The position numbers and the translations under genes are program-made. From a virus, in IMG/VR virus record IMGVR_UViG_3300013132_000219, positions 1 to 26,830 of that record: 26,830 bases of DNA; one strand, 5' to 3'. Shown here one piece after another: positions 1,609 to 21,030 of the stretch; the first letter of the stretch is position 1; each line of letters begins with the position of its first letter. The notes beneath the pieces were generated by a model. The model had not been told where the DNA came from, searched no databases, and was given only the letters and a program-made list of their open reading frames with translations.

Positions 1609-2529
1609 ATGTCCAGATACGGTCTGCGCACACTTGTTGGCGACAACAGAAAAGTCACGAGTCTAGGAAAGAAACCTGCGGCTGGTATCGGTGTCGTTCA
1701 GGGCTACGGCGTGGCGACGGGCGGTTCGTCGTCTAGCATCACCGTTTCAAGTCAGAACTATACGCTTCTGACTTTTACGAGTGACGGCACTTTGACCGTT
1801 TCTTCGAGTGGTTTGTTTGATTATTACATCGTCGCAGGCGGAGGGTGCGGCGGCGCAAACGGAGCCAGTAATACTTCAGGCGGTGGCGGCGGTGCGGGCG
1901 GTGTTTTGACAGGCACAGCATATTTTGACGCCAATCAAACGATTGACATTGGCGCAGGTGGCACAGGTTCAACCACAACGGGTTCGGCGACTATGGGTTT
2001 GTGTTCGACTATCGGTTCAGGTTTGGGTGCTTTGAGTGCGGCGGGTGGCGGTCGTGGTAGCGCATACAACCAAGATTTGACTGTTCAGGCAGGTGGTTCA
2101 GGCGGTGGTGGCATTTTGGCGAATGGCGGAAATCTTTCGGGCGGTCCAAGTGTCGCCGACGCAATACAAGGTCACGCAGGCGGCGCAGGTCTTGGTGCAA
2201 TAAATGTCGGTGCAGGCGGTGGTGGCGGTGCAGGCGGTGTTGGTGCGAGCATGGTTTCAGGCACTACGGGTGCAAATGGTGGTGCAGGTGTTGATGTTTC
2301 AGCCTTTCTTGGTCAGGCAGCGAACACGACAAAGGTTGCGGGCGGCGGCGGCGGCGGCGGTCTGGTAGGCGGGTCGGCAACAGAGGGCGGCGGTGCGGGC
2401 GGGTCAAACGCCGCAGGAAACAACGGCACGGCAAACACGGGCGGCGGTGGCGGCGGTGGTGCATACGGCGCATCTAGGGCAGGCGGCAACGGTGGGTCAG
2501 GCGTGGTGTATATCAGGTTTAAGGTTTGA
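1609..2529 (+). CDS. glycine-rich tail/adhesin protein
   Basis: A 306-residue protein. Residues 1-40 form a short N-terminal part. At about 45-75 is a strand-rich segment (YTLLTFTSDGTLTVSSSG followed by DYYIVAGGG) matching the start of the glycine-rich domains seen in phage tail proteins. From about 75 to the end come long runs of Gly, Ala, Ser and Asn, including two poly-Gly tracts, ending in GGSGVVYIRFKV. Such domains resemble Gly-rich tail-tip adhesins (known from T-even gp38), which bind host surface receptors, so receptor binding is the inferred role. The gene has a composition unlike its neighbours: I see no GATC in it, although that word is very frequent elsewhere in the window. It overlaps the next gene at TGATG. 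Confidence 0.72.
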   Translation: MSRYGLRTLVGDNRKVTSLGKKPAAGIGVVQGYGVATGGSSSSITVSSQNYTLLTFTSDGTLTVSSSGLFDYYIVAGGGCGGANGASNTSGGGGGAGGVLTGTAYFDANQTIDIGAGGTGSTTTGSATMGLCSTIGSGLGALSAAGGGRGSAYNQDLTVQAGGSGGGGILANGGNLSGGPSVADAIQGHAGGAGLGAINVGAGGGGGAGGVGASMVSGTTGANGGAGVDVSAFLGQAANTTKVAGGGGGGGLVGGSATEGGGAGGSNAAGNNGTANTGGGGGGGAYGASRAGGNGGSGVVYIRFKV

Positions 2530-2846
2530 TGATGAGCGCACAATACTTTGCACAAATTGACGACAACAACATCGTCACCGATGTTCATGTTGTTCAACAA
2601 GAGTTTCTTGAAGCGAACCCTGAGCGTTATACGGGTCGCTGGGTTGAAACATTCTTTGACACGGCAGGCAAAACTTACGCAGGCATCGGGTTCGAATACT
2701 TGGAAGCGGAACAAGACTTCAGACCACAACAGCCGTATCCTTCGTGGACTTGGGCGAACAAGATTTGGAATCCGCCGACACCGTATCCGTCAGACGGCGG
2801 TTTGTATCGTTGGAATGAAGCAGAACTTGAGTGGGTCGCTATCTAA
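2529..2846 (+). CDS. small tail-associated protein (YFAQIDxNNIV type)
   Basis: A 105-residue protein starting MMSAQYFAQIDDNNIVTDVHVVQQEF. This opening is a recurring module in phage tail and fibre regions (YFAqIdenniVtnviVv), usually followed, as here, by a Trp/Tyr/Pro-rich C-terminus (PSWTWANKIWNPPTPYPSDGG, YRWNEAELEW). I place the start at the ATG at 2529 overlapping the upstream TGA; a TTG three bases earlier and a second ATG at 2532 are alternatives. It is translationally coupled to the glycine-rich protein and shares its GATC-free composition, so the two probably arrived together. A chaperone or fibre-tip role is possible but not shown. Confidence 0.65.
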   Translation: MMSAQYFAQIDDNNIVTDVHVVQQEFLEANPERYTGRWVETFFDTAGKTYAGIGFEYLEAEQDFRPQQPYPSWTWANKIWNPPTPYPSDGGLYRWNEAELEWVAI

Positions 2847-2861
2847 CTAGGTGCGTCGATC

Positions 2862-3026
2862 ATGGTCGAATGTTTGAAATGTCGTGTTGTCGTGCGACAC
2901 GATGTTCGACGTGTTGTCGGTTGCGGTTGCGATCCCGACAGCCCGACTTGGGTATATGTCGAACCGAACGGTGATGTCAAAGGTTTCAGTCAGTCGAAAT
3001 GGCGAACTATCGATGACGGTCAATAA
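2862..3026 (+). CDS. 54-residue Cys-containing small protein
   Basis: A short ORF beginning MVECLKCRVVVRHDVRR and ending WRTIDDGQ. It has a CxxC at residues 4-7 and a CGC at 21-23, a layout compatible with one small zinc-binding knuckle. The remaining sequence (DSPTWVYVEPNGDV) looks like a beta hairpin. It fills the gap between the tail genes and the holin-like gene, uses the same codon style as the lysis module (GATC returns here) and has no competing ORF. Function unknown. Confidence 0.5.
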   Translation: MVECLKCRVVVRHDVRRVVGCGCDPDSPTWVYVEPNGDVKGFSQSKWRTIDDGQ

Positions 3027-3063
3027 ATTGAAGGCTAATGTTTGATCAACAGAAAGCGAGAAC

Positions 3064-3261
3064 ATGGTCATGTCATTGAACGAGAAACAAAGGGCGATGA
3101 TTGCGTCTTATTTGCGAAGTGTTGTCGGCGCGGTGTGCGCTGTTGTCGCGACGGGCAACTATTCGATCGATGATCTTGCGAAGGCGGCTGTCGCCGCCGT
3201 GTTGCCGCCATTGTTGCGTTGGGCGAACTCGAACGATCCTTCGTTTGGTCGCGGATCGTGA
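3064..3261 (+). CDS. holin-like small membrane protein
   Basis: A 65-residue protein with a short charged N-terminus (MSLNEKQR), a hydrophobic segment around residues 11-30 (IASYLRSVVGAVCAVVATG) and a second, less hydrophobic amphipathic stretch (AKAAVAAVLPPLLRWAN) before a polar tail. It precedes the endolysin and overlaps it by GTGA, the usual holin-endolysin arrangement. In holins these segments form holes in the cytoplasmic membrane at the time of lysis. An ATG two codons downstream (3070) is an alternative start. The family is not certain; context carries most of the weight. Confidence 0.6.
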   Translation: MVMSLNEKQRAMIASYLRSVVGAVCAVVATGNYSIDDLAKAAVAAVLPPLLRWANSNDPSFGRGS

Positions 3262-7166: not shown

Positions 7167-8129
7167 ATGCAAGTGATACACAAACCGCGACACGGTTCGA
7201 TCGAATGGTTGCAACTGCGACATCGCGACTTCTCGGGACGATGCACGTTCGGCGCAAGTGACGCGCCCGCGTTGATGAACGCGTCGCAATTCATGTCGCG
7301 CGCCGATCTGTGGCACGCGAAGCGCAACGAACCGACGTTCAGCGAAACAACACCCGCGATGCATTTCGGGAACATCGTCGAACCCGTCTTGATCGACGAA
7401 CTCGGACGACGTTTGGGCATCAAGATGACCACGCCCCAAAGCATGTACCGCGAACATCGTTTCACCGTGACGCTCGACGCGCTCGGCATCGACGATGACG
7501 CGGACAACGTCACCGTGATCGGTGAAGTCAAGACGACGCGTCGTCACCGCATCACGAACGTCGACGACATACCGCACGAATATCTTTGGCAATGTTGGGC
7601 GCAAATGTTGGTCGTCGATCGACCTTGCTATTTGATCGTCCTTGATCGTGACATGAACATCACGCATCACGCGATCCCGCGCAACGATCAAGCGTTCGAC
7701 ACGTTGATCCGCGAGTCTGAAACGTTGGGCAAAGCGATCGACGAACACGACGAACGCGTCGCCGAAACGATGATCGACGCGTTGGACGCGGAACAGATCG
7801 CGAACGTGTGGAAACCGCAACCGATCGTTCGCGAATTGACAATCGACGAACATTCGTGGGTTCGCGACCTAGCCGACGCTCGCGACCTGAAGAAACAAGC
7901 CGAAACGATCGAGAAGGCGGCGCGCGACCATATCGCCCGCGTCATGCTCGACGCTGAGATCGCCACGTTGAACGGTCAAACAGTCCTGACTTGGAAAGAA
8001 CAAGCGGGACGTGACACGCTCGACGTTGCGTCGTTGCGACAGGATCATCCTGACCTTGTCGCGACGTATACCAAACAACAACAACCTATCCGCGTCATGC
8101 GGATCAACACGAAGGGGAACAATCAATGA
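7167..8129 (+). CDS. YqaJ-type viral recombinase (lambda exonuclease family)
   Basis: A 320-residue protein. The order of motifs fits the YqaJ/lambda-exo family of PD-(D/E)XK nucleases: GASDAPALM near residues 29-37, FGNIVEPVLIDEL around 68-80, TLDALG near 102 and the catalytic IGEVKTT near 118-124, followed by YLWQCWAQMLV. Members degrade the 5' strand of double-stranded DNA ends to give 3' tails for single-strand annealing. Residues after 215 form a charged helical C-terminal region. It is the first gene of a plus-strand operon, with a strong Shine-Dalgarno (AAAGGGGACAAC), and overlaps the next gene, its likely annealing partner, by 4 bases. Confidence 0.85.
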   Translation: MQVIHKPRHGSIEWLQLRHRDFSGRCTFGASDAPALMNASQFMSRADLWHAKRNEPTFSETTPAMHFGNIVEPVLIDELGRRLGIKMTTPQSMYREHRFTVTLDALGIDDDADNVTVIGEVKTTRRHRITNVDDIPHEYLWQCWAQMLVVDRPCYLIVLDRDMNITHHAIPRNDQAFDTLIRESETLGKAIDEHDERVAETMIDALDAEQIANVWKPQPIVRELTIDEHSWVRDLADARDLKKQAETIEKAARDHIARVMLDAEIATLNGQTVLTWKEQAGRDTLDVASLRQDHPDLVATYTKQQQPIRVMRINTKGNNQ

Positions 8130-8752
8130 CATTCGACCTATCCAACTACGTTGATGTCGCGACGCGCATCAAACAACTTCGGGCGAAACATCCCGACGCG
8201 GTGTTGCGACCCGCGAACCCAGACGAACCGTTCCGTGTCGTCGAGATCGGTGGGCGCGAGTTCATCATCTATGTCGCCGCCTGCTATCGATCACCCGACG
8301 ACAAGATGCCCGCGATCGCGGTCGCGGCTGAACCCGTCATCGGTGCGTCGTCGTTCACGCGGAACAGCGAAGTCATGAACGCCGAAACGTCGGCGTGGGG
8401 TCGTGCGATCATGGCGGCACTCGCGGTCGACGAACCGCATGTCGCGAGCCGTGACGAAGTCGTCAACAGGCGCAACGACGAACAACCGAGAGACAACGTT
8501 GTTCATCAATCGTTCACGCAAACGAACGAAATTGATCAAGTCAAGTCGGAACACCCGTCGTCGAAGGTTCGACAACTCGGCGCGGTCGCGTCACAGAAAC
8601 AGATGAACTTGTTGCACAAACTCGCCCGCGAACGTCAAGTCGCGTCGATCGAACAACACGCGTCCGATGTCGTCGGGCGTGATGTCGCGTCGTTGTCGTC
8701 GTTGACGAGCAAAGAAGCGTCGCGCGTGATCGAGTCGTTGATGCAATCATGA
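8126..8752 (+). CDS. single-strand annealing-type recombination protein (Erf-like)
   Basis: A 208-residue protein. The N-terminal domain ends with SSFTRNSEVMNAETSAWGRAIMAAL, closely resembling the R.sE.mNAETSA.GRAl motif found in phage single-strand-annealing proteins and their relatives. A polar linker follows (about 120-150), then ASQKQMNLLHKLARERQV, a small helical C-terminal domain common in these proteins. It directly follows and overlaps the YqaJ exonuclease, the classic exonuclease/annealase pairing for phage recombination. The exact family (Erf, Rad52-like or other) cannot be fixed by eye. Confidence 0.65.
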   Translation: MTFDLSNYVDVATRIKQLRAKHPDAVLRPANPDEPFRVVEIGGREFIIYVAACYRSPDDKMPAIAVAAEPVIGASSFTRNSEVMNAETSAWGRAIMAALAVDEPHVASRDEVVNRRNDEQPRDNVVHQSFTQTNEIDQVKSEHPSSKVRQLGAVASQKQMNLLHKLARERQVASIEQHASDVVGRDVASLSSLTSKEASRVIESLMQS

Positions 8753-14954: not shown

Positions 14955-15107
14955 GTGACGGACAAAGACATCATCAATGCAATAGGCTTCTTACGGCGCA
15001 TCTCGGTCGGTCGATTAGACGAACAACGTTTGATCGACACCGTTGAAGCGTTAGAAAGAGAATTAGAGAAACGACGACATGACCGACGCAAACATCGCAA
15101 CACGTAA
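14955..15107 (+). CDS. 50-residue helical small protein
   Basis: Starts at GTG with a purine-rich CGGGAAGC immediately upstream: TDKDIINAIGFLRRISVGRLDEQRLIDTVEALERELEKRRHD. The last 25 residues are an amphipathic helix with heptad spacing. It overlaps the start of the PAPS-reductase-like gene by 29 bases. An alternative GTG at 14903 gives a shorter, poorer protein in another frame. Confidence rests on the protein-like helix pattern and position. Confidence 0.5.
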   Translation: MTDKDIINAIGFLRRISVGRLDEQRLIDTVEALERELEKRRHDRRKHRNT

Positions 15108-15918
15108 GCCGTTGCGCTTCTTATCGCTCGGTGCTGGGGTGCAAAGCACGACGTTGTTGTTGATGATGTTGCACGATGTCATTGAACCTGCCGATCATGT
15201 CATCTTTGCCGATACGGGTTGGGAACCGAAAGCGGTGTATGAACATCTACATCGTTTGAAGCAGTTGATGTCGCAAGCGAACATGCCGTTTCACGTTGTG
15301 TCGATCGGCAACATTCGTCAAGATACATTGACACCGAATAAGCGTGTCGCATCGATGCCGTTGTTCATGTTGTCGTCTGAAGGCAAGAAAGGCATGGTTC
15401 GTCGCCAATGCACAAAGGGCTACAAGATTGAGCCGTTGTTGCGTAAGCAACGCGAACTTGTCGGACTTGCCAAAGGTGAGCGCAACAAACATCACCTTGC
15501 AACGACGATCATTGGAATTTCGTTCGATGAGAGCGAGAGAATGCGCGACGCGTCGTTTCCGTGGTTGCGGAATGACTATCCATTGATCGATCGTCGCATG
15601 ACTCGACAAGATTGTGTTGATTGGTGTTTGTCGCATGGATACGAAACACCGCCGCGTTCAGCCTGCATCGGTTGTCCTTTCAAGAGTGATGATGAATGGC
15701 GACGACTGCGACAAGAAACCCCCGACGAGTTTGCCGATGCGGTCGACTTTGACCGTCAACTGCGCAATCTAAACAATCCATTGAGCAACGCGATTACGTC
15801 AATTCCGTACTTGCATCGTGCAAGAATCCCACTTGATCAAGTTGACTTACGTAATGCAAGTGAACTAGGTCAGGACAGTTTGTTCGATCAAGAGTGCCAA
15901 GGAATGTGCGGCGTATGA
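15079..15918 (+). CDS. PAPS reductase-like / N-type ATP pyrophosphatase family protein
   Basis: A 279-residue protein. Residues 15-27 (LSLGAGVQSTTLLLM) are a variant PP-loop: the usual SGGxxS is GAGVQS. FADTGWEPKAVYEHL is the next conserved block, with RRQCTKGYKIEPL near 113 and ACIGCPF near 198. This is the signature of the phage PAPS-reductase-like proteins, which adenylate a substrate using ATP; the Cys pair CIGC could bind metal or carry sulfur. True sulfate reduction is unlikely in a phage. Related proteins act in DNA phosphorothioation (DndC) and in nucleotide modification, and here it sits directly before the 7-deazaguanine genes. Substrate unknown. Confidence 0.7.
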   Translation: MTDANIATRKPLRFLSLGAGVQSTTLLLMMLHDVIEPADHVIFADTGWEPKAVYEHLHRLKQLMSQANMPFHVVSIGNIRQDTLTPNKRVASMPLFMLSSEGKKGMVRRQCTKGYKIEPLLRKQRELVGLAKGERNKHHLATTIIGISFDESERMRDASFPWLRNDYPLIDRRMTRQDCVDWCLSHGYETPPRSACIGCPFKSDDEWRRLRQETPDEFADAVDFDRQLRNLNNPLSNAITSIPYLHRARIPLDQVDLRNASELGQDSLFDQECQGMCGV

Positions 15919-16152: not shown

Positions 16153-16905
16153 ATGGCGTTGTTGACGCAGAACAGCGAACTGCGACCGCACGGCATCCAC
16201 AATTTCACGATCCCCGCGTGGTTCGTTCGATTGGACGACGGGTCAATCTTCAAGACGTGTCCGAACGCGGGTGCGTGCGCGCAAGTGTGCTACGCGCGGA
16301 ACGGAACTTACTTGTTCTCGAACGTCATGGCGGCGCACATGCGCAACCTTCGCATGATCATCGACACGCCCGACAAATGGCAAGACGCGATCACGAACGA
16401 ACTGCGACAACGACGTTTCCGACCGACGAACAAGGCGCGTGACGCGATCGAAGGGCTGAACATCGACGACTTGGACGAATGGTTGCGCAAATGGTGGGAT
16501 CAAGGTGGGAAGGCGGTGCGCATCCATGACAGCGGCGACTTCTTCGCAGAATGGTATCTGCATCGCTGGTTTGATATCGCAACAAACACGCCCGACGTGC
16601 TGTTCTACGCATATACGAAAGAAGTCGCGATGTTGCGCAAACAACGACATGTCCCCGTCAACTTCCGTTTCGTGTTCTCGACGGGCGGTTTGCAGGACGA
16701 CTTGATCGGCGATGATCGTCATGCCGATGTCTTTCCGAATGAACGCGCAATCACGGACGCAGGGTATGTCAGTCAAGACGCGAACGACTTGTTGTGCGTG
16801 TTGTTGTCGACGAACAAGATCGGTATTCCAGCGAACAACATCAAGCATTTCAACAAATTGATCGACGGGCGCAGATTCTCGGAACTGCGTATAAGGCGCG
16901 GCTGA
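16153..16905 (+). CDS. Gp88-family protein, candidate DpdA-type guanine transglycosylase
   Basis: A 250-residue protein from the ATG at 16153. It starts MALLTQNSELRPHGIHNFTIPAWF, then KTCPNAGACAQVCYARNGTYLF with Cys36, Cys42 and Cys46, which could bind a metal or Fe-S centre. RIHDSGDFF follows near residues 123-130, then DVLFYAYTKEV, HADVFP and GIPANNIKHFNKLIDGRRF. These are the hallmarks of the phage gene product 88 family. From memory, some Gp88-like proteins have been reassigned as DpdA2, which exchanges guanine in DNA for preQ0 or related bases; this needs checking. Its neighbours queF, a deazaguanine transporter and queC support that role. Otherwise it is an uncharacterised phage enzyme. 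Confidence 0.68.
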   Translation: MALLTQNSELRPHGIHNFTIPAWFVRLDDGSIFKTCPNAGACAQVCYARNGTYLFSNVMAAHMRNLRMIIDTPDKWQDAITNELRQRRFRPTNKARDAIEGLNIDDLDEWLRKWWDQGGKAVRIHDSGDFFAEWYLHRWFDIATNTPDVLFYAYTKEVAMLRKQRHVPVNFRFVFSTGGLQDDLIGDDRHADVFPNERAITDAGYVSQDANDLLCVLLSTNKIGIPANNIKHFNKLIDGRRFSELRIRRG

Positions 16906-16986
16906 AACACCCCCTGTCGACACCAAGGGTGACGGGGTTGAACGCGTCTGCGCGCCTGCTGACGCGTCTGCTAGCCTTGTAGACAC
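16906..16986 (+). promoter_or_regulatory. intergenic region with inverted repeat and possible leaderless promoter
   Basis: An 81-base gap. ACGCGTC (around 16942) and GACGCGT (around 16960) are inverted copies about 12 bases apart. TAGCCT at 16972-16977 fits a TAnnnT -10 and lies 9 bases before the ATG at 16987, with no Shine-Dalgarno. Transcription of the ParB-fusion gene may start here and be leaderless. Confidence 0.4.
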
Positions 16987-18198
16987 ATGAAGGGCAACAT
17001 CAGAACCGAGATTCAGTCGTTGGCGGTGTCGATTGACGACTTGCGCGAACATCCCGAGAACGTGCGGCAAGGCGATGTCGGTGCGATCAGCGAAAGTTTG
17101 TCGTTTCACGGACAGTACCGTCCGATCGTCGTGCAACGTTCGACGAACTTCGTGTTGGCGGGCAATCACACTTTGAAGGCGGCGCGCGCGCTGGGTTGGT
17201 CGCATGTCGCGGCGACGTTCGTTGATTGCAATGACGATCGCGCTTTGCGCATCTTGTTGATCGACAACAGAACGAACGATCTTGCGTCCTATGACGAACC
17301 CGCGTTGATCGATGCGTTGAAACGAGTGCATGAAACCGACGAAGGGCTGTTGGGTACTGCGTTTGACCCGTCTGCGCTCGACGAAATGATCGCCGCGCTC
17401 GGCTTAAATGAACCCGACACCGACATTCCGTCGTCGCGAACGTTGCCCCTTGACATGATCTTCACGCAAACGTTGTTAGGATTGTGTTGTGTCGCGGTTG
17501 CAAGCGGATTGAAGTACGGCAAACAGTCAGGGAAAGAAGTTTGCGGAAACTACCATGTTCACGCGCGTCACACGTTGACGTTCTTGGACAACGATTGGCA
17601 CGACTATCGACACGACAAACATGTCGCGGAAACCGCGCAGTTTCGCCCGAAATATGTGACGACGCGCGACCTTGTGACCCGCGATCAAGCAAAGCGGTTC
17701 GGTATCGAGTATCAATCGATCGAACAAACGATCGAACAAGCAGACGAACTTGCGCAACACGCGGAGAACGTCATTCTGATCCCGAAATATGACTGCATCG
17801 ACGAATTGCCCGATCGTTTCATGTTGGGATACTCGATTCCGACTTCGCACGGCGGCACACCTTTGCCAATCGAACGGTTTGCGGGTCGACGAGTGCATTT
17901 GCTCGGGGGTTCTTGGAAGAAACAGATGTCCTATCTCGCCGCGATGAAAGACGACGTTGTTTCGATCGACAACAACTATTTGTCGTCGGAAGCAAGGTGG
18001 GGGTGTTTCACGTATCCAGACGGGCGCACCGCGACCGTTCGCGACCTAGGCATCACGAATGAACCCTACAAAGATCATTGCCCGTTGTTCATCGCCGCGA
18101 TCATCTCGATCAACAGCATCGCGAACGCGGTCAAACTGATCTTTGACGACGGATACCAACTTGAAGTCGACGACGATGATGTTGCACCCCGCGATTGA
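16987..18198 (+). CDS. ParB-domain protein fused to a tRNA-guanine transglycosylase-like (DpdA-type) domain
   Basis: A 403-residue two-domain protein. Residues 12-105 are a ParB/Srx-type domain: HPENVRQGD, LSFHGQYRPIVVQ and GNHTLKAAR at 59-67, the phage/methylase-type version of the ParB box. From about 150 a second domain has GLKYGKQSG (about 173), DNDWHDY (about 200), VILIPKYDCIDELP (about 263), GYSIPTSHGGTPLP (281-294), VHLLGGS and VVSIDNNY. The spacing of a PKYD strand, a GYS-PTSxGGTP loop and a HLLGG strand suits the TIM barrel of guanine transglycosylases such as DpdA. Activity would be base exchange in DNA. It has a possible leaderless start and sits between the Gp88 and queF genes. 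Confidence 0.62.
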   Translation: MKGNIRTEIQSLAVSIDDLREHPENVRQGDVGAISESLSFHGQYRPIVVQRSTNFVLAGNHTLKAARALGWSHVAATFVDCNDDRALRILLIDNRTNDLASYDEPALIDALKRVHETDEGLLGTAFDPSALDEMIAALGLNEPDTDIPSSRTLPLDMIFTQTLLGLCCVAVASGLKYGKQSGKEVCGNYHVHARHTLTFLDNDWHDYRHDKHVAETAQFRPKYVTTRDLVTRDQAKRFGIEYQSIEQTIEQADELAQHAENVILIPKYDCIDELPDRFMLGYSIPTSHGGTPLPIERFAGRRVHLLGGSWKKQMSYLAAMKDDVVSIDNNYLSSEARWGCFTYPDGRTATVRDLGITNEPYKDHCPLFIAAIISINSIANAVKLIFDDGYQLEVDDDDVAPRD

Positions 18199-18206
18199 AC
18201 GCGGTA

Positions 18207-18230
18207 GGTTAGACGCTTAAACACCTAACC
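18207..18230 (+). terminator. hairpin between ParB-fusion gene and queF
   Basis: GGTTAG at 18207-18212 pairs with CTAACC at 18225-18230 across a 12-base loop containing ACGCTTA, the same core seen in the loop of the hairpin at 11638. It may be a weak terminator or processing site; TTGAAC (18195) and TAAACA 17 bases later could alternatively make a weak promoter for queF. Confidence 0.3.
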
Positions 18231-18263
18231 GAAACTCATCGAGTCAACCGAAACAAGGTCAAC

Positions 18264-18647
18264 ATGTCAACAAACGTTCTTGGGGCGATCGTTCAACACG
18301 CTGTCGAACGCCTTGACATCATCCCGTTCGCAACCGACGCGCTCGCACAAGTCGAGTTTGTGACCCATGAACTCGCGTCAATTTGTCCCGTCACCAATCA
18401 ACCCGACATTTCGACGGTCGTGATCACCTACGAACCCGACGATTGCATCATCGAAAGCAAGTCGTTGAAATTGTATCTGTGGGGGTTTCGTGACAAAGGC
18501 ATCTTCTGTGAAGCGATCGCGACAACAATCGCGACACGCATCTTCGTTGATGCACACCCGAACAACGTTGTCGTGACAGTTAAACAACAAGCACGCGGGG
18601 GCATCGTCACGACCGCAACCGCCCAAATGACAAAGGAGACATCATGA
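18264..18647 (+). CDS. queF: QueF-type NADPH-dependent 7-cyano-7-deazaguanine (preQ0) reductase
   Basis: A 127-residue protein of the short (type I) QueF build, T-fold. ICPVTNQPD places the nucleophile Cys41, which forms a thioimide with the nitrile of preQ0, and Asp48. ESKSLKLYL at 64-72 is the family's NADPH-binding motif, so this is a reductase type and not the amidating QueF-like type, which lacks it. The usual substrate-contacting His-Glu pair (FHE) appears here as FCE (Cys82-Glu83), an unusual change. It would convert preQ0 to preQ1. It is followed without a gap by the transporter gene (4-base overlap). Partner genes point to DNA modification with preQ1 and not to tRNA queuosine. Confidence 0.83.
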   Translation: MSTNVLGAIVQHAVERLDIIPFATDALAQVEFVTHELASICPVTNQPDISTVVITYEPDDCIIESKSLKLYLWGFRDKGIFCEAIATTIATRIFVDAHPNNVVVTVKQQARGGIVTTATAQMTKETS

Positions 18648-19189
18648 ACTATCCAAGAAAGGCGTACTTATACGCAACGGGGTATGTGGCAAGCGTCGTT
18701 CTCGCGAACCTGACGTTGCACATATTTGTCGAACTGCCGTTGCTCGGCGTGTTCACGTTCGGAACATTGTTCTTCGCGTTCACATTCACGTTCCGCGATC
18801 GAGTGCATCACCTAGCAAACAGCAAAGCGTTCGTCTACGCAACGATCGGCGTGACCGTCATCGCGAACATCATCGCCGCCTACCTGACTGGCACGCCTTG
18901 GCGTTTCATCATCGCATCGTTCATCGCGATCGCACTTGCCGAAACAGCAGACACCGAGATCTACCACGCGTTTAGACGCAAGACATGGTTGACTCGCGTG
19001 TTGACATCGAACGCGGTTGCAGTTCCCGTCGATACCGCCGTGTTCGTGCTACTCGCCTTCTACGGCAACGAAAGCAACAAGATCATGTGGCAGATATTCC
19101 AGAACGATGTCTTGTGGAAGTTCGCAATCGCAACAACAATCGCCGTGAACATCAGCAAACGCGCCCAAGATGCCTACGCGTCAACGTGA
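18644..19189 (+). CDS. VUT/YhhQ-family queuosine-precursor transporter
   Basis: A 181-residue integral membrane protein with five to six hydrophobic segments (about 12-30, 35-50, 62-82, 86-102, 122-142, 155-170). The FRDRVHH loop and the IALAETADTEIYHAFR segment carry the polar residues typical of the Vut_1 (DUF165, YhhQ) family, whose members import preQ0/preQ1. Shine-Dalgarno AAAGGAGACATC. It overlaps queF by ATGA and is followed by an unknown gene, so it is expressed with the reductase. In a phage, its plausible job is to raise the intracellular supply of deazaguanine base during infection, placed in the cytoplasmic membrane of the host. Confidence 0.8.
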   Translation: MNYPRKAYLYATGYVASVVLANLTLHIFVELPLLGVFTFGTLFFAFTFTFRDRVHHLANSKAFVYATIGVTVIANIIAAYLTGTPWRFIIASFIAIALAETADTEIYHAFRRKTWLTRVLTSNAVAVPVDTAVFVLLAFYGNESNKIMWQIFQNDVLWKFAIATTIAVNISKRAQDAYAST

Positions 19190-19192
19190 TCG

Positions 19193-19849
19193 ATGAGCAA
19201 CTTCTTAAACATCAACATCCCTTACTTCTTTGCAAACCTTGACAGCGCGTTCTTGTATGACCGCGACCCGTCGCCAACAAACGACATGGTTCCCGTCGAA
19301 GTGTTCATGTTCACGTCGATCCCGCAACGTTGCGGAATGTTCTCGGTAATGACCGAATGGGGGTCGCAACATGCGCGAGTCCCGATCCATTACCTGACGA
19401 GCATGAACGTCGAACAACCGACCGCCTACCCGCTTGATTGGATCGAACTATGGGACTCGGTTTCGTACTATGCGTCCGTCAACATCATCGACTATTGCAA
19501 GAACCGCGCGGCAATGATCTGGTTGAAGGATCACACGCAACACAAAGCCCGCTACATGTTCACGATCGACTGGTGTCTCGGGCAACAATACTTGAGTGGC
19601 TACGGCGAGTACGCGGCGGGTCACAAGAACGGACACGTGTTCGAAGGCGAAGGCGGACAGTATTTCATCCAGCCGAACAATCGCGTCCTTTGGTTAGACG
19701 GCGGTTCGTGGATCACGAAACAACTTGTCAAACCTGATTGGCGTGTGTTCAGTCAAGAGTTCTCGTGCGAACACACGGGATCACGTTGGGTCAGCGAGTC
19801 CGACGACGAACTTTACTTCTACACGTTCAAAGAACGACCCAACACATGA
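19193..19849 (+). CDS. uncharacterised protein in the deazaguanine operon
   Basis: A 218-residue soluble protein I do not recognise. It opens MSNFLNINIPYFFANLDSAF and is rich in aromatic residues (Trp, Tyr, Phe). It has scattered Cys (RCGMF, DYCKN, WCLGQQ, FSCEH) without a clear metal-binding cluster. A central stretch reads YMFTIDWCLGQQYLSGYGEYAAGHKNGHVFEGEGGQYF. The start is three bases after the transporter stop, and its own stop overlaps the start of queC (ATGA). Such tight packing between the transporter and queC suggests a role in handling or further modifying the deazaguanine, but no reaction can be named. Confidence 0.65.
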   Translation: MSNFLNINIPYFFANLDSAFLYDRDPSPTNDMVPVEVFMFTSIPQRCGMFSVMTEWGSQHARVPIHYLTSMNVEQPTAYPLDWIELWDSVSYYASVNIIDYCKNRAAMIWLKDHTQHKARYMFTIDWCLGQQYLSGYGEYAAGHKNGHVFEGEGGQYFIQPNNRVLWLDGGSWITKQLVKPDWRVFSQEFSCEHTGSRWVSESDDELYFYTFKERPNT

Positions 19850-20598
19850 ACATCGTTGTGATCGTGTCGGGCGGCATGGACTCAGTCACGCTCGCCCATT
19901 TGTTGAAACATGAAGGACAAGACGTTCGCCTTGTGTCATTCGACTATGGGCAACGTCATCGGAAAGAACTGTCGTTTGCGCAACAATGCGCCCGCGACCT
20001 GCACGCCCGACACGACATCATCGACTTGACGAACATCAGTCGTTTGATCTCACGATCCGCATTGACATCGAACGACATCGACGTGCCAGACGGTCATTAC
20101 GCCGAAGACACGATGCGTCAAACAATCGTCCCGCACCGCAACGGAATCATGGCGGCGATCGCGATTGGTATTGCAGTCAACGAACATTGCGATCATGTCG
20201 CATTAGGTATCCATGCAGGCGACCACTACATCTACCCTGACTGTCGACCGATGTTCGCGACAACACTTGAACAACACGCAAAGGTCGCCAACGCGGGCTT
20301 CTTGCCCGATCACTTCACGATCATGACACCGTTCGTGAACATGACAAAGGCTGAGATCGTCGCACAAGGCGCAACGATCGGCGTGCCTTACGAACGAACG
20401 TGGTCATGCTACAAAGGTGGCGACGTGCATTGCGGCGCGTGCGGAACATGCTTCGAACGACGAGAAGCATTCAACGACGCGAACGTTATCGATCCGACTA
20501 ACTACATGACGCTTCCGCATTACGATGACCCACGTGCCGATCATGCGTCCTTGTCTCAACTGTCGAACATTGACAACGAACATCACTCGATGTCCTGA
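19846..20598 (+). CDS. queC: QueC, 7-cyano-7-deazaguanine (preQ0) synthase
   Basis: A 250-residue protein from the ATG at 19846, inside the stop of the previous gene. The PP-loop SGGMDS is at 8-13, followed by FDYGQRHRKEL. VPHRNGIMAAIAIGIA and GIHAGDHYIYPDCRP are conserved QueC blocks. The C-terminal zinc site is complete as C-x7-C-x2-C-x2-C (SCYKGGDVHCGACGTCFERREAF). QueC uses ATP and ammonia to turn 7-carboxy-7-deazaguanine into preQ0. FolE, QueD and QueE, which make the substrate, are not in this window. The product feeds QueF and the transglycosylase candidates upstream. A longer frame starting at a TTG (19738) is not needed. Confidence 0.92.
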   Translation: MNIVVIVSGGMDSVTLAHLLKHEGQDVRLVSFDYGQRHRKELSFAQQCARDLHARHDIIDLTNISRLISRSALTSNDIDVPDGHYAEDTMRQTIVPHRNGIMAAIAIGIAVNEHCDHVALGIHAGDHYIYPDCRPMFATTLEQHAKVANAGFLPDHFTIMTPFVNMTKAEIVAQGATIGVPYERTWSCYKGGDVHCGACGTCFERREAFNDANVIDPTNYMTLPHYDDPRADHASLSQLSNIDNEHHSMS

Positions 20599-20884
20599 AT
20601 GTCAAGCACAACGAGACAAGTTGTATCAAGGCGACTACCGACAACAAGCCGCGATCGTGCGAACGACCGCGACCGTGTGCTGGTTATGCGGTGAAGGCGA
20701 ACGACCCGACGACCCATTCACCGCCGACCACGTCATCCCAAACAACACAACAAGCGAACTTCGCGCCGCACATCGATCCTGCAACAGTTCACGCAAAGAC
20801 CTTCCCGCACACGTTCATCGAACACGCAACACACGACGACGAATGAACCCACGTCAACCCAATTCACCCACGTCAAAGACCTAG
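20543..20884 (+). CDS. HNH endonuclease
   Basis: A 113-residue protein. CLNC...CPEC at residues 4-18 and CWLCGEG form the zinc-binding Cys pairs. The HNH core is ADHVIPNNTTSELRAAHRSCNSSR with the D-H dyad, the Asn and the final H...CN. HNH proteins next to terminase are required for packaging-linked DNA cleavage in several HK97-like phages. The ATG at 20543 is preferred over 20525 because it starts directly before MRPCLNC, the usual N-terminus; both overlap queC. The last 13 residues are encoded within the beginning of the tandem-repeat region. Confidence 0.82.
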   Translation: MRPCLNCRTLTTNITRCPECQAQRDKLYQGDYRQQAAIVRTTATVCWLCGEGERPDDPFTADHVIPNNTTSELRAAHRSCNSSRKDLPAHVHRTRNTRRRMNPRQPNSPTSKT

Positions 20885-21030
20885 ATTGACTGAGATTGCC
20901 TAGGTACGATCAAGAATGACAATCAACCCACGTCAACCCACGTCAACCCACGTCAAAGACCTAGATTCAGTTAGATTGCCTAGAATAGAGCAAGAATGAC
21001 GATCAACCCACGTCAACCCACCCGCCAACC
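20871..21030 (+). repeat. 80-bp imperfect tandem repeat with embedded 10-bp units (packaging-site candidate)
   Basis: Two copies of an 80-base unit beginning CGTCAAAGACCTAG (20871 and 20951), each with ATTGCCTAG in the middle and CAAGAATGAC near base 40. They end in runs of the decamer CGTCAACCCA. Further decamers precede the first copy inside the HNH gene's 3' end. The second copy degenerates after about 70 bases into a C-rich stretch. The rest of the gap to terS (21031-21153) is pyrimidine-rich and shows no gene I trust. Confidence 0.8.

Follow-up and report, generated by a model that had tools for sequence, protein, structure and literature searches.

What does a set of 7-deazaguanine genes do in a phage, and from where would such a phage obtain the base that these genes handle? 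The question is raised by an island at positions 16153-20598 of the window, that is, of the whole stretch of DNA analyzed here, which is the entire 26,830-bp contig of IMG/VR record IMGVR_UViG_3300013132_000219 and itself only a fragment of a viral genome. The island follows the order GP88, ParB_N-DUF6610, QueF, VUT/COG1738 transporter, phrog_3704 protein, and QueC. Gene content, a fold match, invariant residues, synteny, and a mutual exclusion of QueD and the importer were observed in this analysis, and we consider it probable, at roughly three in four, that the island serves to modify the DNA of the phage itself, with ParB-DUF6610 inserting a 7-deazaguanine, likeliest preQ1, whose base is salvaged and not made from GTP.

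The evidence for the inserting enzyme comes from the fold of the DUF6610 domain. An AlphaFold2 (AF2) model built from 71 sequences (pLDDT 93.3, pTM 0.90) was compared with solved structures using Foldseek, and its matches were almost all tRNA-guanine transglycosylases (TGTs) of bacterial, archaeal, human, and mouse origin, together with the DNA preQ0 insertase DpdA (7ui4). Foldseek probabilities for these matches were ~0.97-1.00; since a single bacterial enzyme accounts for the majority of the entries, their count overstates the support. In a viral structure library, the best named matches were an uncultured phage ParB protein, the HCTV-1 homologue, and phage queuine tRNA-ribosyltransferases. 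Residues D201, D228, S283, H304, G307, G308, Q313, and D328 are invariant across the 71 sequences, and the candidate functional residues are D201, D228, K267, S283, H304, and D328, five of them invariant and the lysine present in 69 of 71. D201, D228, and D328 lie where barrel strands 3, 4, and 8 end, the strands that in TGTs hold two binding or acid-base aspartates plus the nucleophile, and we take them, by strand order, to be the counterparts of TGT D102, D156, and D280. The ParB_N-DUF6610 protein is thus most likely a TGT-like enzyme, for which guanine exchange in DNA is predicted from the model, and the "ParB-fused TGT-like protein" of the original prediction is upheld by the fold together with the invariant aspartates.

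A link to DNA modification is provided by the halovirus HVTV-1, whose DNA carries dPreQ1 (PMC6884629) at ~30% of G (PMC8306585) and in which Hutinet et al. 2019 did not find known DpdA (PMC6884629). HVTV-1 gp69 is a DUF6610 protein (PF20314 2.7e-56) that adjoins FolE within the preQ0 cluster. This link was further examined by gene neighborhood: a single-protein query of viral contigs retrieved 1 relative of DUF6610 and an alignment query 79 viral loci, and an importer, QueF, QueC, or QueD was present in 28 of the 35 ParB-DUF6610 records, against 0 of 80 control loci for phrog_3704 and 4 of 51 and 4 of 67 for GP88. A check of the counts for duplicates among the comparison records showed that L171 and L228 are apparently one provirus and that L008 and L172 are an identical contig. 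In a close relative (L249), a 64% identical ParB_N domain occupies the same slot fused to a DNA methyltransferase (N6_N4_Mtase); the ParB_N domain is presumed to act as the DNA adapter or targeting domain of the transglycosylase. A second ParB protein adjoins ParB-DUF6610 in L179 (8714-9847) and L178 (8416-9573); it is a distantly related copy of DUF6610 (25% identity, hhalign E 5e-7) in which the motifs are lost, and the pair resembles the catalytic and non-catalytic pair of the eukaryotic TGT. Standalone DUF6610 proteins (L182-L225) mostly lie without Que genes nearby; one 70-kb record, L187, holds two standalone genes (2497-3210 and 7926-8678), the second directly after an importer and QueF.

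The two pathway enzymes of the island were confirmed. QueC scores 190.8 bits in TIGR00364 against a cut-off of 150.3 and has the complete motif set that had been claimed for it (SGGMDS, YGQRHRKE, VPHRN, YPDC, and CYKGGDVHCGACGTC), including the zinc motif, which has 7 residues, not 8, inside its first Cys pair. QueF passes the NCBIfam equivalog TIGR03139 "preQ(1) synthase" (96.5 bits against a cut-off of 86.9) and carries CPVTNQPD at residue 41 and the expected ESKSLK at residue 64, with the catalytic Cys and Asp present. The 7-deazaguanine island itself was borne out, its families and open reading frames being re-identified in the same region, and the proposal that QueF points to preQ1 gained support.

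The origin of the base is addressed by what stands beside these enzymes. No match to FolE, QueD, or QueE was found anywhere on the contig, and comparison with the syntenic L257 (GP88, ParB-DUF6610, QueF, QueC, QueD, QueE, FolE, then TerS and TerL-like open reading frames) revealed that the transporter and the phrog_3704 gene occupy the place of QueD, QueE, and FolE. Across 37 records (the 35 with ParB-DUF6610 plus L187 and L245), of which most, like the contig, are fragments, QueD was present in 11, the importer in 17, and both together in 0, an exclusion with Fisher p of 2e-4 for all records and 2e-6 for those of >=15 kb, kinship not being corrected for. The tree places 16 proteins in one group (support 98/91), 15 of them with an importer alongside and one with none of these genes. 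The importer, QueF, and QueC state, seen in the window, L150, L168, and L179, corresponds to four changes on this tree, and QueD, FolE, and QueE were not found in these four. Other combinations also occur, with importer and QueF but no QueC nearby in L178 and in a Peptococcaceae locus (L227), and importer without QueF, QueC, or QueD in ten DUF6610 records. The exclusion is not universal, since HCTV-1 and the GP88 phage L123, both without the ParB fusion, have importer and QueD. With FolE, QueD, and QueE off the contig and importer plus QueC able to supply or complete a precursor, the base would be scavenged from the surroundings (medium) or from the host's pool instead of being synthesized by the phage from GTP.

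The proposed route is as follows. The precursor would enter via the transporter, or be supplied by the host; QueC would convert 7-carboxy-7-deazaguanine (CDG) to preQ0, and QueF would reduce preQ0 to preQ1, the likeliest inserted base. Brought to DNA by its ParB_N domain, the DUF6610 barrel would then remove selected guanines in phage DNA and put the 7-deazaguanine in, with Asp328 as putative nucleophile, Asp201 as acid/base, and Asp228 and its neighbors holding the base; the likely benefit would be resistance to restriction. Activity on DNA, residue roles, base identity, import, and protection are what we infer here from the observations above. In a more specific form, which we put forward only tentatively and regard as doubtful, the importer feeds a scavenged base to the ParB-linked transglycosylase, and of the downstream enzymes the phage retains just those required by the compound taken up, so that importer alone would mean a ready base, importer with QueF would mean preQ0, and importer with QueC and QueF, as in the window, would mean CDG. 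The cargoes of COG1738-family transporters given in PMC11130926 are preQ0, preQ1, and queuine; CDG import is not reported for the family there, and no other report of CDG as its cargo was found. With these known cargoes, QueC would be unnecessary, which implies that CDG is either provided by the host or imported by this branch of the family.

Several points weigh against the modification of phage DNA by a salvaged base. The Foldseek matches of DUF6610 to TGT and DpdA have E-values of ~1e-3 and TM-scores of 0.4-0.6, and the residue equivalences were taken from strand order, not superposition. DUF6610 gave no PF01702 or PHROG TGT match, hhalign and PDB profile searches were negative, and its sequence profiles found zero relatives among solved structures, the relationship to TGTs being visible by structure only; the zinc-binding CxC..C motif of tRNA TGTs was not found in the domain sequence. 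In QueF, C82-E83 (window 18507-18512) stands in place of the His-Glu pair, many QueF proteins having His there; in its relatives, the position before Glu is mostly Cys, Ala, Gly, or Asn, with His in HVTV-1, HCTV-1, L178, and L179. The transporter passes Pfam Vut_1 (PF02592, 51.9 bits against a cut-off of 27.2) and falls below the cut-off of 50.95 in TIGR00697 (queuosine precursor transporter; 37.9 bits, 1.5e-9); its relative in L008 passes with 100.2 bits. Since the contig is incomplete, genes not seen could sit in the unsequenced structural part. Finally, in the mycobacteriophages described below, DUF6610 occurs along with a separate DpdA and so need not be the sole or the catalytic transglycosylase there.

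Other explanations were weighed on the same evidence. A real, if lesser, chance is given to a host origin of the base, in which the host makes CDG or preQ0, phage QueC and QueF boost the last steps, and the transporter is accessory; the CDG requirement of QueC, set beside the published cargoes, speaks for it, as do two host genomes with importer-type copies that have their own QueD and TGT. An accessory role is hard to fit with the ten importer-bearing records that lack QueF, QueC, and QueD, and the separation of importer and QueD across the 37 records also argues against this reading. That DUF6610 has a TGT-like fold and another job, as a glycosylase, DNA-bound accessory, or tRNA enzyme, is unlikely: the standalone proteins without Que neighbors and the motif-less second copies of L178 and L179 favor it, while the invariant aspartates and the presence of dPreQ1 in HVTV-1, where no known DpdA was seen, do not.

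The proposal published for phages that have Que genes and lack DpdA (PMC6884629, PMC9837993), that these genes raise queuosine in host tRNA, would here leave ParB-DUF6610 unrelated to the Que genes and importer, and we regard it as quite unlikely. DUF6610 has a TGT fold itself and consistently accompanies these genes, a ParB_N-methyltransferase takes the same slot in L249, and neither a TGT gene nor another QueD is present in the Streptomyces genome containing L228, a full-synthesis copy, so the cluster cannot serve tRNA queuosine there. The version in the original prediction, in which GP88 and the ParB fusion act together as two base-exchange enzymes, appears very improbable. GP88 is adjacent in the window and in L257, and Que genes are found close to it in L113, L123, L126, L136, L178, L179, L245, and L303; its model matches no TGT, the majority of GP88 loci are without Que genes, and GP88 is near DUF6610 in only 2 of 79 loci. 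Structure comparison of the two candidates with TGT and DpdA thus gave a fold match for DUF6610 and none for GP88.

The known systems nearest to the island share some of its features and differ in others. The haloviruses HVTV-1 and HCTV-1 (Druskaviridae) share with the window DUF6610 (gp69/gp64) together with QueC and QueF, but they are archaeal viruses without the ParB_N fusion and have the full synthesis genes FolE, QueE, and QueD. Mycobacterium phages Funsized, Rinkes, and Knocker (L006, L140, and L144; gp1-gp7) have ParB-DUF6610, then QueF, then QueC as in the window; unlike the window, they have a separate DpdA-like transglycosylase and no importer seen nearby, and Funsized and Rinkes encode QueD, QueE, and FolE. 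Two base-exchange enzymes may therefore coexist in these cultured phages. DpdA and DpdA2 (phages 9g, CAjan, nt-1, and Dp-1; PDB 7ui4) share the TGT fold and the proposed reaction, whereas DUF6610 is shorter, is fused to ParB_N here, and has no detectable similarity to the tested mycobacteriophage DpdA, the profiles of the two not aligning in hhalign. Cui et al. 2023 reportedly described a subfamily, DpdA4, as "specific to archaeal viruses," and it may be DUF6610; no paper on DUF6610, DpdA4, or DpdA3 (in this sense) was found in the literature covered.

The window transporter belongs to the same Pfam family as the COG1738/QPTR (YhhQ) preQ0/preQ1 transporters but is a short form under the NCBIfam cut-off that replaces FolE, QueD, and QueE in the operon, and it had no tblastn match in the named phages. 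Phages with YhhQ have been reported, and Hutinet et al. found phage YhhQ unlinked to any phage group (PMC6884629); within the DUF6610 family, by contrast, the link is sharp. A YhhQ-type transporter is likewise encoded by HCTV-1 (PMC8651126). The combination called unusual in the original prediction had accordingly been reported, in genomes of phages or archaeal viruses, as far as importer, QueF, and preQ0 genes go (HCTV-1; PMC8651126; PMC6884629), and what is unusual is the absence of FolE, QueD, and QueE with the importer in their place.

Table 1. Features of the island and its boundary, in window coordinates
Feature	Coordinates	Strand	Evidence
GP88 family protein (backbone phage gene, non-TGT fold)	16153-16905	+	PF17338 E 3e-42
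ParB_N + DUF6610 fusion open reading frame	16987-18198	+	PF20314 + PHROG ParB family
ParB_N domain, presumed DNA adapter/targeting part	16987-17430	+	PF02195 1.9e-4 (under the Pfam cut-off); PHROG ParB family phrog_723 2e-38
DUF6610 domain, predicted DNA guanine transglycosylase	17437-18195	+	PF20314 5.9e-36; AF2 model, Foldseek
QueF, NADPH-dependent preQ0->preQ1 reductase, short QueF-II type	18264-18647	+	PF14489 7e-20; TIGR03139
VUT/COG1738 queuosine-precursor importer, short divergent form	18644-19189	+	PF02592; phrog_4899 8e-29
phrog_3704 protein, 218 aa	19193-19849	+	phrog_3704 3e-37; without Pfam match
QueC, 7-carboxy-7-deazaguanine->preQ0	19846-20598	+	PF06508 9e-63; TIGR00364; motifs
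HNH nuclease gene, island boundary ahead of terS/terL	20525-20884	+	weak PF01844 / phrog_338 matches

The remaining members of the island appear to lie outside the pathway. GP88 was rejected as a second transglycosylase, its confident AF2 model (pLDDT 95.9) having no PDB match at E < 0.1 (best E 0.14) and its relatives, in at least 565 viral stretches, seldom adjoining Que genes; it has an invariant C36-x5-C42-x3-C46. The phrog_3704 gene between transporter and QueC had been overlooked in an otherwise correct list of named genes. Close relatives (68-84% identity) occur in 80 viral loci (L009-L088), none of which has a Que or VUT gene in the vicinity, so it was rejected as a pathway member and is probably, on this distribution, a passenger in the operon. 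In cyanophages, it is annotated as "PurM," "phosphoribosylaminoimidazole synthetase," or "ferredoxin"; the PurM label looks doubtful for a protein of ~218 aa whose window copy lacks a Pfam match.

The island is embedded between replication genes and terminase. Tail genes occupy the left end of the contig, while terminase, portal, protease, and capsid genes make up the right end. Two neighboring gene pairs of the island, QueF/transporter and phrog_3704/QueC, share a 4-bp overlap (ATGA) each, and the position of the HNH nuclease gene is conserved in relatives. Upstream lies a PAPS-reductase-like protein (phrog_424, 15079-15918), and the noncoding DNA between the HNH gene and terS (~20850-21030) contains repeats resembling AACCCACGTCAA. 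The terminase nearest to that of the window belongs to Pontimonas phage phiPsal1, so the host is probably an actinobacterium.

Modification of DNA with 7-deazaguanine and a phage importer are already known, and the proposed salvage-type island with a ParB-linked DUF6610 is a variant of them. Through it, a "domain of unknown function" gains a testable activity, and the transglycosylases for DNA 7-deazaguanine are extended to a ParB-linked branch in bacteriophages. Because the importer, QueC, and QueF state recurs, the cargo of the transporter is directly testable. The findings suggest that phages can guard their genomes with an imported rather than a self-made base, in which case resistance to restriction could depend on what neighboring microbes release.

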